From Rutstroemia sp. NJR-2017a BVV2 (taxonomy: Eukaryota > Ascomycota > Leotiomycetes > Helotiales > Rutstroemiaceae), in assembly GCA_002946415.1 (NCBI GenBank), contig NJPS01000062.1, positions 682,001 to 746,000 of the forward strand: DNA of 64,000 bases, read 5' to 3'. This document shows positions 14,422 to 33,517 of the stretch, piece after piece (position 1 is the first letter of the stretch; every line of letters starts with the position of its first letter). The notes beneath the pieces were generated by a model. The model ran no database searches. It worked only from the letters and a program-made list of their open reading frames with translations, and was not told where the DNA came from. The translations under genes were made by a program, and so were the position numbers.

Positions 14422-14460
14422 CCCTCGGTCGTCTAGTTGGTTTATGGCGTCCGGCTGTAA

Positions 14461-14472
14461 TTGGTCAGTTAA
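14461..14472 (+). other. Canonical tRNA-Tyr anticodon-loop intron
   Basis: 12 nt (ttggtcagttaa) between A37 and A38, the standard site cut by the tRNA-splicing endonuclease. One-base alternatives in placement cannot be excluded because A and T residues flank it. Confidence 0.8.
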
Positions 14473-14486
14473 ACCGGAATGTCGCG

Positions 14487-14542
14487 GTAAGTTTCACACC
14501 TTACCCAATTCTCTCAGACATGTGCTAAACATATGTCTATAG
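14487..14542 (+). other. 56-nt intron-like insert in the tRNA-Tyr T-stem
   Basis: The insert begins GTAAGT, contains GTGCTAAAC and ends TATAG. Its length and signals match the spliceosomal introns of neighbouring protein genes. It can also form two hairpins: GGTAAG (14486-14491) with CTTACC (14500-14505), and AGACATGTG (14516-14524) with CATATGTCT (14530-14538, one G-U), which puts CTAAA in the loop. Precise removal restores the T-stem. Known nuclear tRNA introns in fungi sit at position 37/38, so a second intron here is not expected. Whether the spliceosome, the tRNA endonuclease or neither removes it cannot be told from sequence. Confidence 0.7.
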
Positions 14543-14586
14543 CGTTCGACTCGCGCCTGAGGGACATCAACATCAAATTTTTGGAC

Positions 14587-14594
14587 TTTTTTTT
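14587..14594 (+). terminator. RNA polymerase III terminator of tRNA-Tyr
   Basis: A run of eight T residues begins 23 nt after the discriminator base, the standard Pol III stop. Confidence 0.85.
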
Positions 14595-17448: not shown

Positions 17449-18140
17449 AACATACAACAGTGAGGATTCGCTGGTGGTCACCCACCCAACTACTAATTCA
17501 CCGATTCAAGGCTTATGTATGGCAGAGCGGACGGGATGCCCAGTTCTCCTTGATCTGTGGTCGTATGTGACAGAAGTACAGATATCAGCGTATATGTATG
17601 TAGACGGAATAGTGAGATGATATGGAAACCGAGGTTAGTCCTGAGGAAGGGGGACAGGAAGGGATTGGAAAAGGAAGGACGTACCTTAGTAGTTAGCGGC
17701 GTGGAGTGAAGTGCTCGGAGTAGATACTCATCTTAAGGCCGATGAGTTTGATTTCTCGTAAGTACTAGTTGGTGTTCCTTGCCGCAAGCCATCAACTGAC
17801 TTACTTTAATCAAGCGAACTTCATGCCATCTCTTCCGCGTTGCTGCCTCCAGTTCCGTGTATTGTAAGACATTACATTCCCAGACGTAGAGCCAATACTG
17901 TAACGGATATCTCATTCTCACCATCAGATGCGAATATCCATCTAGGCTTCTGTCTGCTTCTTGCAGCCTATAATACTTTAACTTCCTTCCCCCGACCGTT
18001 TCGATGTTCTACTTCACATTCCCTTCGCTCGGTCTGTGATCATGTCGTTCGTTCGTTCGTCCGCTCGCTCGCCCACTATCACTTTCAGTCCCAAGAAAAA
18101 CACACAGCAATAAGAAAATTAAATCACCAAAACCCCCTTA

Positions 18141-30262: not shown

Positions 30263-30823
30263 ATAATGGTTGTGCTGAGAAGTTGAACATTTCGATGGAT
30301 GGGAGTGTTTCGTGCGTGGGATGCTCATGGTGAGTCTAGATCTACCTTTGAGAGATGGGTCATAGGACGAAACATAAGACTATGAGAGTGGTTCATCGCC
30401 ATTACTTGGGAGTGAGTGAGGGGTGTATTGGAATGAAGAGGAAGCCATGATGAAGTATTGTGGGTAGATCACGTACTGCCGCAATGCACTCATTTGCGGT
30501 GCATAGGTGCGGTAGCTTGGGTGATCTTGACCGATTCATCTAATATGGGCACAAGGCCCTTCTTTATAGTCCACCTCTCTGGCCCACCTCTCTATCGCCA
30601 TCCGACGTTCAGTTAAATTACATTAGGTGAATATGCCGACAAGTATTCTTTCGAGGGGGAACGGCGGTGCAATAGACGATATCACGGTGATGTCGGAGAA
30701 TCATTGTTGCGGCACCGCCTTCGACAGCAGGCAGAATTTCAATAATTTTTGGAACTTTTGATTGAGCTTCCAGATTAACGATCTGATTATTCCTGCTGGG
30801 AAAATGCTGTAGCAAGATCAATT

Positions 30824-33517
30824 ATGCCGCCCCAAAATTCAAATGGATCTTCCGGTCCCTCGAGCACCAAAAAACGCAAAGACCCCCCTCAATCGTCCTC
30901 AGGAGGGAAACCCGATGGAAGCAAAGGACGCGACATAAAGCGCGCCAAGTCCAGAGATGCGCGATCAATTATGACGCAGACCGCGGACACTGCACTTAAC
31001 AATGGAGATTTGGATTTGCAAGCCTTTCTGAAAGCGAGGGAGTTTGAAATAAAGGCTCTCGAAGATGGCATGCAGAAATCGAAAGTCTCTTTAAGTACTA
31101 GAGCTTTTCAGCAAGTTCCGCGGGACATGAGGCGGAGAACAGCAAGTCATAATGTGAAGAGGGTTCCGAAGCGTCTGCAAAAGAGAGCGGGGAGAGAAAT
31201 GAAGGAGGATAATACACCGACCGTGAAGGCAAACAAGAGGAAACCTAGGAGTTCGAGAAGTCATATACGACGAGAGACAGCGAAGAAATTGGGAGGTTTG
31301 GCGGAGAAGAAGAGGGCTTCTAAAGGTGTTGTGGATGCTGCTGGTATTATTACAAGAGAAGCCAGACCAAAAATACGGAAAAATGCATTGAACGCGCCAC
31401 CCAAGCCGAAGTCAAAGTTTAGGAAACGACAGGTTTACAAGACATGGTTACCTACTCATCTGTGGCATGCAAAGAGGGCGAAGATGACGGATCCGAAAAA
31501 TCCTTTGTGGAGAATGGCTATACCGCTCACCTCGAATGAGAAGTCGTATCGACCAACACATAGGGCGTCAGGAATTAGAGGAGCTGTGGCTTGGGATGTG
31601 AGCTATATGAGTACAATTGGTCTGAGAGGGCCGATAGAATCTCTTAGGAGAGTTCTCTCAGCTGTAGGGGTGCCGGATACAGACGTGAGTGGGCCAAAAG
31701 GCGAAAGCTGGAGGAGAGGTAGACGAAGTTGGAACGGCTGGCTCAGCAAACAAGTCAAAGACCAACAATTACAAATTAGCCCCGCGGTTGCATTCTGGGA
31801 CATCACTTCTGAAGAAACCCCAGACAGTGTATCGGAAAATCCAATAAGACAAATCTACATCAGAATCCATCCTGCTGCTTTCCTTGAGACTTGGAATGAG
31901 CTACTTCGTCTTTCGAAACTACAGCGTCCAAGTATACAAATTGAAGATCTTCGGTTTGAGATTGGAAGCATTGAAATTACTGGTCCGGGCTCGACGGAAG
32001 CTCTACTTGGTATACTTCATCCGTACCATGAAGCTGAAGCGTCGAAGGAACCACATGCACAGACTTTCGCTTCTTTGGGCGGTGTTACAAACCCTGCGTC
32101 TCTACCTGCGAACTCCATATTATCATTTTCTATAATGGATCCTAGACTCCGCTACCCTCCTCGCAAAATCACACTTCCCGATCCTAATGATGAGGACGCA
32201 AATTTCTCCCTGCTCGAGACCTTATCTACTTGGCCAGCGGATAAAGCACCAGCGTCTTCACATCTGTTCAACAGGGACCAACGCTACAAAGCCACTCGCC
32301 TTCCCTCACAGAAAGCTTTAAATCGCCGCAAAGCCCTAGCACCACCAGGAGCATTTCCGTCCATCACCGAACGCGATCCATCCATACCTATTATGCTTCT
32401 GACCTCTCGCATGACGCCCGATTCATCAACCCAAGGTAGCTGGACTCTACTCGTTCCATGGAAATGCGTCCTGCCCATTTGGTATGGTTTAGTACACTAC
32501 CCTCTTTCTTCTGGCGGAAATCCACGATTTGGAGGCCTGCAGGAACTGAGACAGATACACTTTGAGCACGGAGTTCCATGGTTTCCGGCTGATTATCCTG
32601 GGACGAATTCTGGATATGCGTGGGAGGTTGATCAGAGGGAAAAGAGGAAACGAGATTGGGATAAGAGACCAAAAGGGAAGAGAATTGAGTGGAAATCTGT
32701 TGATTTAGGAGGTGGGAAAAGGGGCGAAGTGGGATTGGGCTGGGCTTGTGATTTTGGAAAGGTGGTTGGATTGCCGACAGAGTCTTCAGCCGGTCAGGAG
32801 AGTACTGTGGCTTCCGATTCAACGCAGTCAACTGCTCCAGTTGAGATACCAGCTCCAGCCAAAGAACCTGATAACCCTTTCAATCAACTTACCAGCAAAC
32901 ACGTATCTTCTCTCCTTTCGTCTCCTGATGTAGATCTTCCGCCGTCAAATTTCCTCACTACAATCCGTGTCACGCTTCTCTCCCGCGGCGTCGCCACACC
33001 TTGCGCACGTATTTACCGTCTGCCATCTTCACCTCTACTAAGCAACCCCGATTCCACAAACACAACATCCACTTCTACAACCTCTCCTACCCTCCGCGAT
33101 CAATGGCTCTCGTTGGTCCCCGAATCAACGAAATCTAAGCCTCTACCCAACTCGAAAAAACGACCCCTTCAAACACGCATCCCCCTCAACACGCCTCTTC
33201 CGCAACGTGTTCGTCTCCTAGCTCAGCAGCTTCTTCAAAATCCACCGTTACCGTATCCGAAGGTCAAAGAGGAAGAAGATGATTACCCGATTGTGCCGGA
33301 TGAAGATGATTTAATAGGCTTTGTGACGACTGGGGAGTATAATTTGGCGGAGGGGAAGGCAGTTGCGCTGGGTAGTGTAGGGGTGAAAGGTTTAGTTGAA
33401 GGGGTGAGGAGGGATAGGGATACGGATGGGAAGGAGGGCAAAGAGGGAAGATGGTGCATAGTTAGGAATGTTGGGGAGAAAGTTGGGAGGCTGGCTAGGT
33501 GGGATCTTGTGAGGTGA
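30824..33517 (+). CDS. POP1: RNase P/MRP protein subunit POP1
   Basis: Largest protein subunit of RNase P (tRNA 5' maturation) and RNase MRP (rRNA processing), acting in the nucleus and nucleolus. It is a single 897-codon exon. After a basic, disordered N-terminus, the POP1 signature begins near residue 90: RAFQQVPRDMRRRTASHNVK and VPKRLQKRAGREM, then a basic stretch and WLPTHLWHAKRAKM. The POPLD domain is clear near residues 535-600 (GSWTLLVPWKCVLPIWYGLV, then FPADYPGTNSGYAW). A C-terminal segment containing FLTTIRVTLLSRGVATPCARIY matches the end of the family. Length and domain order are normal for fungal POP1. The start Met sits directly before the basic N-terminus with no upstream in-frame alternative that improves it. 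Confidence 0.95.
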   Translation: MPPQNSNGSSGPSSTKKRKDPPQSSSGGKPDGSKGRDIKRAKSRDARSIMTQTADTALNNGDLDLQAFLKAREFEIKALEDGMQKSKVSLSTRAFQQVPRDMRRRTASHNVKRVPKRLQKRAGREMKEDNTPTVKANKRKPRSSRSHIRRETAKKLGGLAEKKRASKGVVDAAGIITREARPKIRKNALNAPPKPKSKFRKRQVYKTWLPTHLWHAKRAKMTDPKNPLWRMAIPLTSNEKSYRPTHRASGIRGAVAWDVSYMSTIGLRGPIESLRRVLSAVGVPDTDVSGPKGESWRRGRRSWNGWLSKQVKDQQLQISPAVAFWDITSEETPDSVSENPIRQIYIRIHPAAFLETWNELLRLSKLQRPSIQIEDLRFEIGSIEITGPGSTEALLGILHPYHEAEASKEPHAQTFASLGGVTNPASLPANSILSFSIMDPRLRYPPRKITLPDPNDEDANFSLLETLSTWPADKAPASSHLFNRDQRYKATRLPSQKALNRRKALAPPGAFPSITERDPSIPIMLLTSRMTPDSSTQGSWTLLVPWKCVLPIWYGLVHYPLSSGGNPRFGGLQELRQIHFEHGVPWFPADYPGTNSGYAWEVDQREKRKRDWDKRPKGKRIEWKSVDLGGGKRGEVGLGWACDFGKVVGLPTESSAGQESTVASDSTQSTAPVEIPAPAKEPDNPFNQLTSKHVSSLLSSPDVDLPPSNFLTTIRVTLLSRGVATPCARIYRLPSSPLLSNPDSTNTTSTSTTSPTLRDQWLSLVPESTKSKPLPNSKKRPLQTRIPLNTPLPQRVRLLAQQLLQNPPLPYPKVKEEEDDYPIVPDEDDLIGFVTTGEYNLAEGKAVALGSVGVKGLVEGVRRDRDTDGKEGKEGRWCIVRNVGEKVGRLARWDLVR

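Follow-up and report, generated by a model that had tools for sequence, protein, structure and literature searches.

A putative spliceosomal-type intron in the T-stem of a tRNA-Tyr gene, one of several similarly interrupted tRNA genes in a Rutstroemia genome

The tRNA-Tyr gene described here carries, besides an ordinary anticodon-loop intron, a second insert within its T-stem, very probably a U2-type GT-AG intron of the spliceosomal kind within a tRNA gene read by Pol III, and one member of a set of such introns. The gene lies in a 64,000-nt stretch of the genome of Rutstroemia sp. NJR-2017a BVV2 (contig NJPS01000062.1, positions 682,001 to 746,000 of the forward strand), referred to below as the window; coordinates are those of the window unless a contig is named. 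The reading of the insert as a spliceosomal-type intron was put forward in a preliminary description of the window, and it is supported by a second tRNA-Tyr gene on contig C23, in which a diverged insert interrupts the same exons, as well as by inserts with like signals in tRNA-Ser(AGA), tRNA-Arg(TCT), tRNA-Thr(TGT) and probably tRNA-Arg(CCT).

Direct reading of the sequence places the whole gene at 14422-14564 on the plus strand, the strand of all its parts. The 5' exon (14422..14460), identical in the C23 copy and in a third copy on contig C2, comprises the acceptor 5' strand (14422-14428), the D arm with the A box, the 5' strand of the anticodon stem and the anticodon GTA (14457-14459), with nucleotide 37 at 14460. 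It is followed by an ordinary TSEN-type anticodon-loop intron of 12 nt at the 37/38 position (14461..14472), the sequence of which differs in the C23 and C2 copies. The middle exon (14473..14486) consists of nucleotide 38, the anticodon-stem 3' strand (14474-14478), a 5-nt variable loop (14479-14483) and the first three T-stem bases, GCG (14484-14486). At this point, between nucleotides 51 and 52, the T-stem is interrupted by the 56-nt spliceosomal-type insert (14487..14542), which is present in the C23 copy and absent from the C2 copy. The insert begins with GTAAGT, a candidate 5' splice site identical in the C23 copy (14487..14492), contains the branch-site-like GCTAAAC, also conserved there (14524..14530), and ends with TAG as a candidate 3' splice site (14540..14542), which is CAG in the C23 copy. 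The 3' exon (14543..14564) resumes the T-stem with CG (14543-14544) and continues with the T-loop TTCGACT (14545-14551), the T-stem 3' strand CGCGC (14552-14556), the acceptor 3' strand and A73. We take the B box to be the uninterrupted stretch 14543-14553, assigned by inspection with the B-box consensus. The first T run 3' of the gene, five T long and resembling a Pol III terminator, is at 14578..14582, and a run of eight T follows at 14587-14594; the longest T run within the gene is three. A full-length 5S rRNA gene without an insert is located about 3 kb away, on the minus strand (17449-17568).

Exact excision of the insert joins GCG to CG, and the restored GCGCG pairs with CGCGC at 5/5 positions, as proposed before; removal of both introns leaves a mature tRNA-Tyr of 75 nt. 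The gene coordinates, the 12-nt intron, the 56-nt insert and the 75-nt product given in the preliminary description were all confirmed on re-reading. Its account of the signals within the insert stood for the GTAAGT start and the TATAG end, but the branch motif GTGCTAAAC is weaker than was claimed, being one base off CTRAY, the usual fungal branch-site consensus.

Among the possible excisions at the tRNA-Tyr locus, 21 leave a variable loop of 4-5 nt, and two of these produce a T-stem with 5/5 Watson-Crick pairs; these are one-base slides of each other with an identical RNA product, and the GT..AG excision is one of the pair. When both strands of the window were scanned for GT[AGT]NG..YAG excisions of 35-90 nt, one out of 2,030 gave a tRNA recognised across the joint, namely that of the tRNA-Tyr insert. 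A looser scan of the window for any GT..AG pair 30-120 nt apart yielded 3 accepted excisions out of 42,283, all of them at the tRNA-Tyr locus. Since ARAGORN is lenient at this locus, accepting 82 of 3,430 arbitrary excisions, pairing of the stem is the better measure. The scan applied to the window also recovers all nine interrupted loci described below, with each of the three Ser loci accepting a second, longer excision in addition. Without excision, the tRNA-Tyr gene of the window was reported neither by ARAGORN nor by Rfam at the gathering cut-off. Being missed by Rfam is by itself no sign of an insert, because a genome-wide Rfam scan reported none of the three tRNA-Tyr genes, the uninterrupted C2 copy included. 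Candidate mRNA introns of the window, collected for comparison (22 rows at 14 places), resemble the tRNA inserts in size and signals, a resemblance that speaks for compatibility rather than for an independent consensus because the motifs were required in the scan.

A search of the 43.4-Mb assembly (79 contigs) found three tRNA-Tyr genes: the window copy and those on C23 and C2. In the C23 copy, the mature exons are the same as in the window copy, and a 57-nt insert, GTAAGT..CACAG, occupies the same site; the two inserts are identical at 49 of 55 aligned bases, and identity over the stretch in the DNA search is 86%. The C2 copy is uninterrupted at 51/52. The preliminary description had raised the question of whether all tRNA-Tyr genes share the insert and had taken several intact ones, if they existed together with a lack of reads joining 14486 to 14543, as a mark of a pseudogene; two of the three genes carry the insert, the C2 copy lacks it, and this is the only uninterrupted tRNA-Tyr gene found. 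The C2 copy alone would leave the pseudogene reading open, which is countered because the C23 copy and other isoacceptors carry inserts as well. A mobile insert was considered and rejected, the Tyr insert on its own as a query matching only the two Tyr loci in the DNA search (E up to 10). In both Tyr inserts, two hairpins are predicted; one would enclose the 5' splice site, and the 5-nt loop of the other would display the CTAAA of GCTAAAC. These predicted folds are unusually strong (z -4.5 and -3.1), and few of their pairs change from one copy to the other; the six other distinct inserts are without such a fold (strongest z -1.9). If it forms as modelled, the hairpin over the 5' splice site of the Tyr inserts could be an obstacle to U1.

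In total, inserts were found at nine of approximately 74 distinct tRNA loci examined, corresponding to five isoacceptors and eight distinct genes. All eight distinct inserts have GT..AG ends and measure 48-65 nt, with GTAAGT, GTAAGC, GTATGT or GTTAGT as the donor and TAG or CAG as the acceptor. The extended 5' splice-site consensus is similar to GTRAGT, and the insert donors, compared with this consensus and with the window introns, are of the same extended type. The inserts occupy four sites, 51/52, 47/48, 53/54 and 4/5, none of them being the canonical 37/38 position. All three tRNA-Ser(AGA) copies found, two on C43 and one on C33, are interrupted at 47/48 by GTAAGC..CAACTAATA or TTACTAACA..TTCCAG; the two Ser genes on C43 share one insert, so that the second of them counts as a ninth locus but not as a distinct gene. 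Both tRNA-Arg(TCT) copies, on C36 and C43, are interrupted at 53/54, by GTATGT..GCTAACC..ACAG and GTAAGT..GCTAACG..CCAG, respectively. One of two tRNA-Thr(TGT) copies has an insert at the same position (GTTAGT..TACTAACA..TATAG), and the other, at locus L082, is uninterrupted with the same T-stem. The one tRNA-Arg(CCT) copy, which also has an anticodon intron, is interrupted between acceptor nucleotides 4 and 5 (GTAAGT..TATTAACAA..CCTAG). We regard this insert as the least certain of the set: its position is 5' of the A box, with a first exon of only 4 nt, and such a layout is difficult to reconcile with the A box determining where Pol III starts. The branch motif is CTAAC or CTAAT in the Ser, Arg(TCT) and Thr genes and TTAAC in Arg(CCT), ending in these six distinct inserts 9-17 nt before the insert end; both Tyr inserts have CTAAA, which departs from CTRAY. 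A one-base slide gives the same product in seven of the eight distinct genes, so the insert junctions are fixed only up to such a slide.

The interrupted genes have the features of nuclear tRNA genes. ARAGORN recognised two of the eight distinct genes unexcised and all eight after GT-AG excision; the two accepted unexcised are the Ser genes, with a misplaced intron, and two isotypes are misread after excision because the program misplaces the anticodon intron. Following excision, the acceptor stem is paired at 7/7 and the T-stem at 5/5 positions in all eight, G-U pairs counted. Unexcised, the T-stem is broken in five genes and the acceptor stem in Arg(CCT), and both stems are whole in the two Ser genes, in which the insert is positioned just beyond the T-stem and its excision therefore restores spacing rather than a stem. 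Each of the nine interrupted genes has a run of 5-8 T that starts 6-17 nt downstream, and internal T runs do not exceed four, a 4-T run being present in two genes, Arg(CCT) and the C43 copy of Arg(TCT). By inspection, the A box is whole despite the inserts, and so is the B box in Tyr, Ser and Arg(CCT). Genes interrupted at 53/54 have the final AG of the intron in place of the first two B-box bases. Pol III can therefore plausibly read the interrupted genes, their boxes either staying whole or being stood in for.

Differences between copies also leave the stems intact. Between the two Arg(TCT) genes there are differences at 9 of 72 exon positions. All nine fall within the acceptor stem, yet this stem is still paired at 7/7 positions in both genes. 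The Ser copies differ at 3 of 82 exon positions: two changes make up a compensatory acceptor pair, T-A to C-G, and the third, A to G in the T-stem, leaves a G-U pair. Preservation of the stems through these changes argues, from the sequences, that the cloverleaf is under selection in the interrupted genes. As for the inserts, the two in Arg(TCT), despite their common site, are not more similar than shuffled sequences (p 0.90), and GTAWGT, GCTAAC and CAG are kept in both; the Ser insert pair is identical at 43 of 53 positions.

A DNA search of the genome with the joined exons recovered three Ser(AGA), two Arg(TCT) and one Arg(CCT) loci, all broken at the predicted sites, and no uninterrupted one. 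The Ile(AAT), Pro(AGG), Asn, Val, His, elongator Met and Leu genes that were examined have anticodon-loop introns only, or none. The approximately 74 loci are made up of 60 from the Rfam scan (after subtraction of three duplicates on contig C74), the three Tyr genes and 11 from A-box matches, one of which is degenerate. The Rfam tRNA scan, with 63 scored hits, some overlong or cut short, and 1,404 first-look candidates, missed known genes, and it is no full census, since none of the three tRNA-Tyr genes was reported. The A-box matches considered were, for one list, the first 100 of 238 places, and 20 and 15 regions from the lists were read; the tRNA census is accordingly a lower bound, and uninterrupted copies could have been missed by it or could lie in unassembled sequence. 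In the course of these searches, tRNA and pattern matches on contigs C25 and C74 were found to recur at identical coordinates up to at least 1.08 Mb; the assembly thus holds a duplicated or alternate long contig.

It is conceivable, albeit very unlikely, that the interrupted genes are dead copies with insertions, the work being done by uninterrupted genes. Uninterrupted tRNA-Tyr and tRNA-Thr(TGT) genes do exist, and the acceptor stem of the C43 copy of Arg(TCT) includes three G-U pairs, which might be taken for decay. However, the Tyr exons are the same across copies, and in Ser and Arg(TCT) the exon changes keep pairing while the inserts diverge yet retain their splice signals. Moreover, the DNA search recovered Ser(AGA) and Arg(TCT) genes in interrupted form only, though their codons UCU, UCC and AGA are in use: the POP1 gene of the window contains 23 TCT, 11 TCC and 21 AGA among 897 codons. 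The protein it encodes (30779-33514) is 89% identical to that of Clarireedia jacksonii and 77-78% identical to those of Monilinia, Botrytis, Ciborinia and Sclerotinia over the searched region, which agrees with a host in Helotiales close to Rutstroemiaceae and Sclerotiniaceae. On the strength of the stems that stay paired, and with no uninterrupted Ser or Arg(TCT) copy among the loci found, we reject the pseudogene reading.

Removal by the tRNA endonuclease and ligase (TSEN, Trl1), in the manner of the ectopic BHB introns of archaea and some algae, appears equally improbable. Such a route could draw on the ordinary anticodon intron in the same tRNA-Tyr gene, and tRNA introns that are multiple or at odd positions are described for archaea, with entries also for a red alga, C. 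merolae (PMC4033280). Against this, none of the seven testable genes has 4/4 pairs in the 4-bp central BHB helix, either at the exact junction or with equal slides of up to 2 nt, the best among the registers listed reaching 3/4; Arg(CCT) lies outside the exact-junction test, its first exon being too short. GT..AG ends are present in all eight distinct inserts, as against 3 of 32 anticodon introns as placed by ARAGORN, two of the three being misplaced by inspection, and there is no fold common to the inserts. BHB introns were therefore rejected for lack of the central helix.

Group I introns follow a U. Although putative small group I introns of 56-81 nt are described in fungal rRNA genes (PMC3160393) and both Tyr inserts are structured, it is hardly credible that we are dealing with very small, degenerate group I introns or with some other element that splices itself or is structured, given that the 5' exon ends in G in seven of the eight distinct genes and in C in one, that strong structure is missing in six of the eight inserts, and that no Rfam intron family matched the window or the seven interrupted loci scanned.

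Three motif patterns searched genome-wide for further interrupted tRNA genes showed no enrichment over reversed controls (99 vs. 153, 69 vs. 75 and 70 vs. 63 matches), as expected if interrupted tRNA genes are few, and it is consequently the tRNA loci alone that carry the case. As a control, 34 loci with similar motif combinations were subjected to 209 excisions, none of which produced a spliced tRNA. These loci were chosen by eye (31 of 139 matches of two patterns and 3 of 99 of another), and most pattern matches were excluded for having a base other than G before TTC, for being repeated on contig C74 or for belonging to a locus already known. Two pattern scans for relatives in IMG/VR returned no matches.

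Several other RNA-like sequences were observed elsewhere in the genome. Four similar copies (L105-L108) start like an A box and have, close to their 3' end, a hairpin of the GGCGCCCCGCGGGGGCGCC type, with T runs following wherever the examined stretch extends that far; they had no Rfam match (E up to 1) and are possibly an unnamed Pol III RNA or SINE family. A further repeat family (L102, L103 and L115) has the A-box-like TGGCTCARTGGYAAAGC and is not readable as tRNA. Locus L086 (C34:1185043-1185893) holds two tandem tRNA-like genes of 137 and 146 nt, in which the anticodon-loop inserts are long and the anticodons odd; these may be tRNAs that are decaying or specialised.

If the inserts are spliceosomal-type introns, Pol III would use the intact A and B boxes of tRNA-Tyr to produce a precursor with two introns of different kinds. 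The nuclear spliceosome would recognise GTAAGT, the branch site and YAG, and branching followed by exon ligation would rebuild the T arm. Removal of the anticodon-loop intron would follow established tRNA biology, with cleavage by the tRNA endonuclease and joining by the tRNA ligase. The spliceosome is nuclear, and the yeast anticodon intron is cut in the cytoplasm; repair of the T arm would for this reason come first, and the factors of later processing and export would need it to recognise the tRNA. Since all Ser(AGA) and Arg(TCT) genes found are interrupted, insert removal is probably essential for these two tRNAs, and decoding of UCU/UCC and AGA should depend on it. Judging from the loci at hand, we consider it likely that the spliceosome has become obligatory for tRNA maturation in this Helotiales lineage: at least five isoacceptors and four positions, extending to the acceptor stem, appear to have been invaded, and all Ser(AGA) and Arg(TCT) genes found would need nuclear excision before UCU/UCC and AGA can be decoded, so that translation would be coupled to the capacity for mRNA splicing.

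Should this interpretation be correct, the spliceosome would be able to process Pol III transcripts that are uncapped and highly structured and that come from essential genes, and the inserts would provide a short, clean substrate for studying cap- and Pol II-independent splicing. The uninterrupted and interrupted paralogues of one tRNA within one genome would constitute a record of intron gain or loss. In addition, essential tRNA genes of such fungi may escape standard tRNA annotation. For C. jacksonii, the nearest named relative, annotation with tRNAscan-SE is given as 131 tRNAs with 22 anticodons (PMC12310695), a count that is consistent with missed essential tRNA genes without proving it.

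Overall, the inserts would extend a known class, the spliceosomal introns of non-coding RNA genes, to tRNA. Splicing by the spliceosome and the splicing of tRNA are usually presented as two separate systems. Among the titles and opening lines of abstracts listed in open PMC text, a scope outside which most of the subscription literature lies, none described nuclear tRNA genes with spliceosomal introns, and the word stem "spliceosom" is absent from the main text of two reviews of disrupted tRNA genes (PMC4090602, PMC4033280). The canonical 37/38 introns, one of which sits in the same tRNA-Tyr gene, differ from the inserts in their site and in having no GT..AG ends with a branch site. They are removed by an enzyme other than the spliceosome. 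The ectopic tRNA introns of archaea and the multiple ones of Cyanidioschyzon merolae are of the BHB type and are cut by the splicing endonuclease. It is in this type that the archaeal and C. merolae introns differ from the inserts, in which the full BHB helix was not found; the likeness lies in their sites outside 37/38, with several introns in some genes (PMC4033280). A different parallel is offered by the rDNA of ascomycetes, chiefly lichen fungi, with its spliceosomal introns, which are described as having been removed by yeast from Pol I transcripts (PMC8527467). These, too, are mRNA-type introns ectopic in a gene outside the Pol II system, but the setting there is rRNA and Pol I, as opposed to tRNA and Pol III here. 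The introns of fungal U6 snRNA and U3 snoRNA are likewise short, with GT..AG ends and a branch site, for which the inserts have candidate motifs, and they too lie in genes for small structured RNAs. Pol III is the polymerase of U6 as well. According to a paper of 2017 (PMC5832005), frequent interruption by an intron was so far known for no small structured RNAs other than U3 and U6. In the genome analysed here, by contrast, the single full match to U6 is intronless, and the hosts of the inserts are tRNAs with internal A and B boxes.
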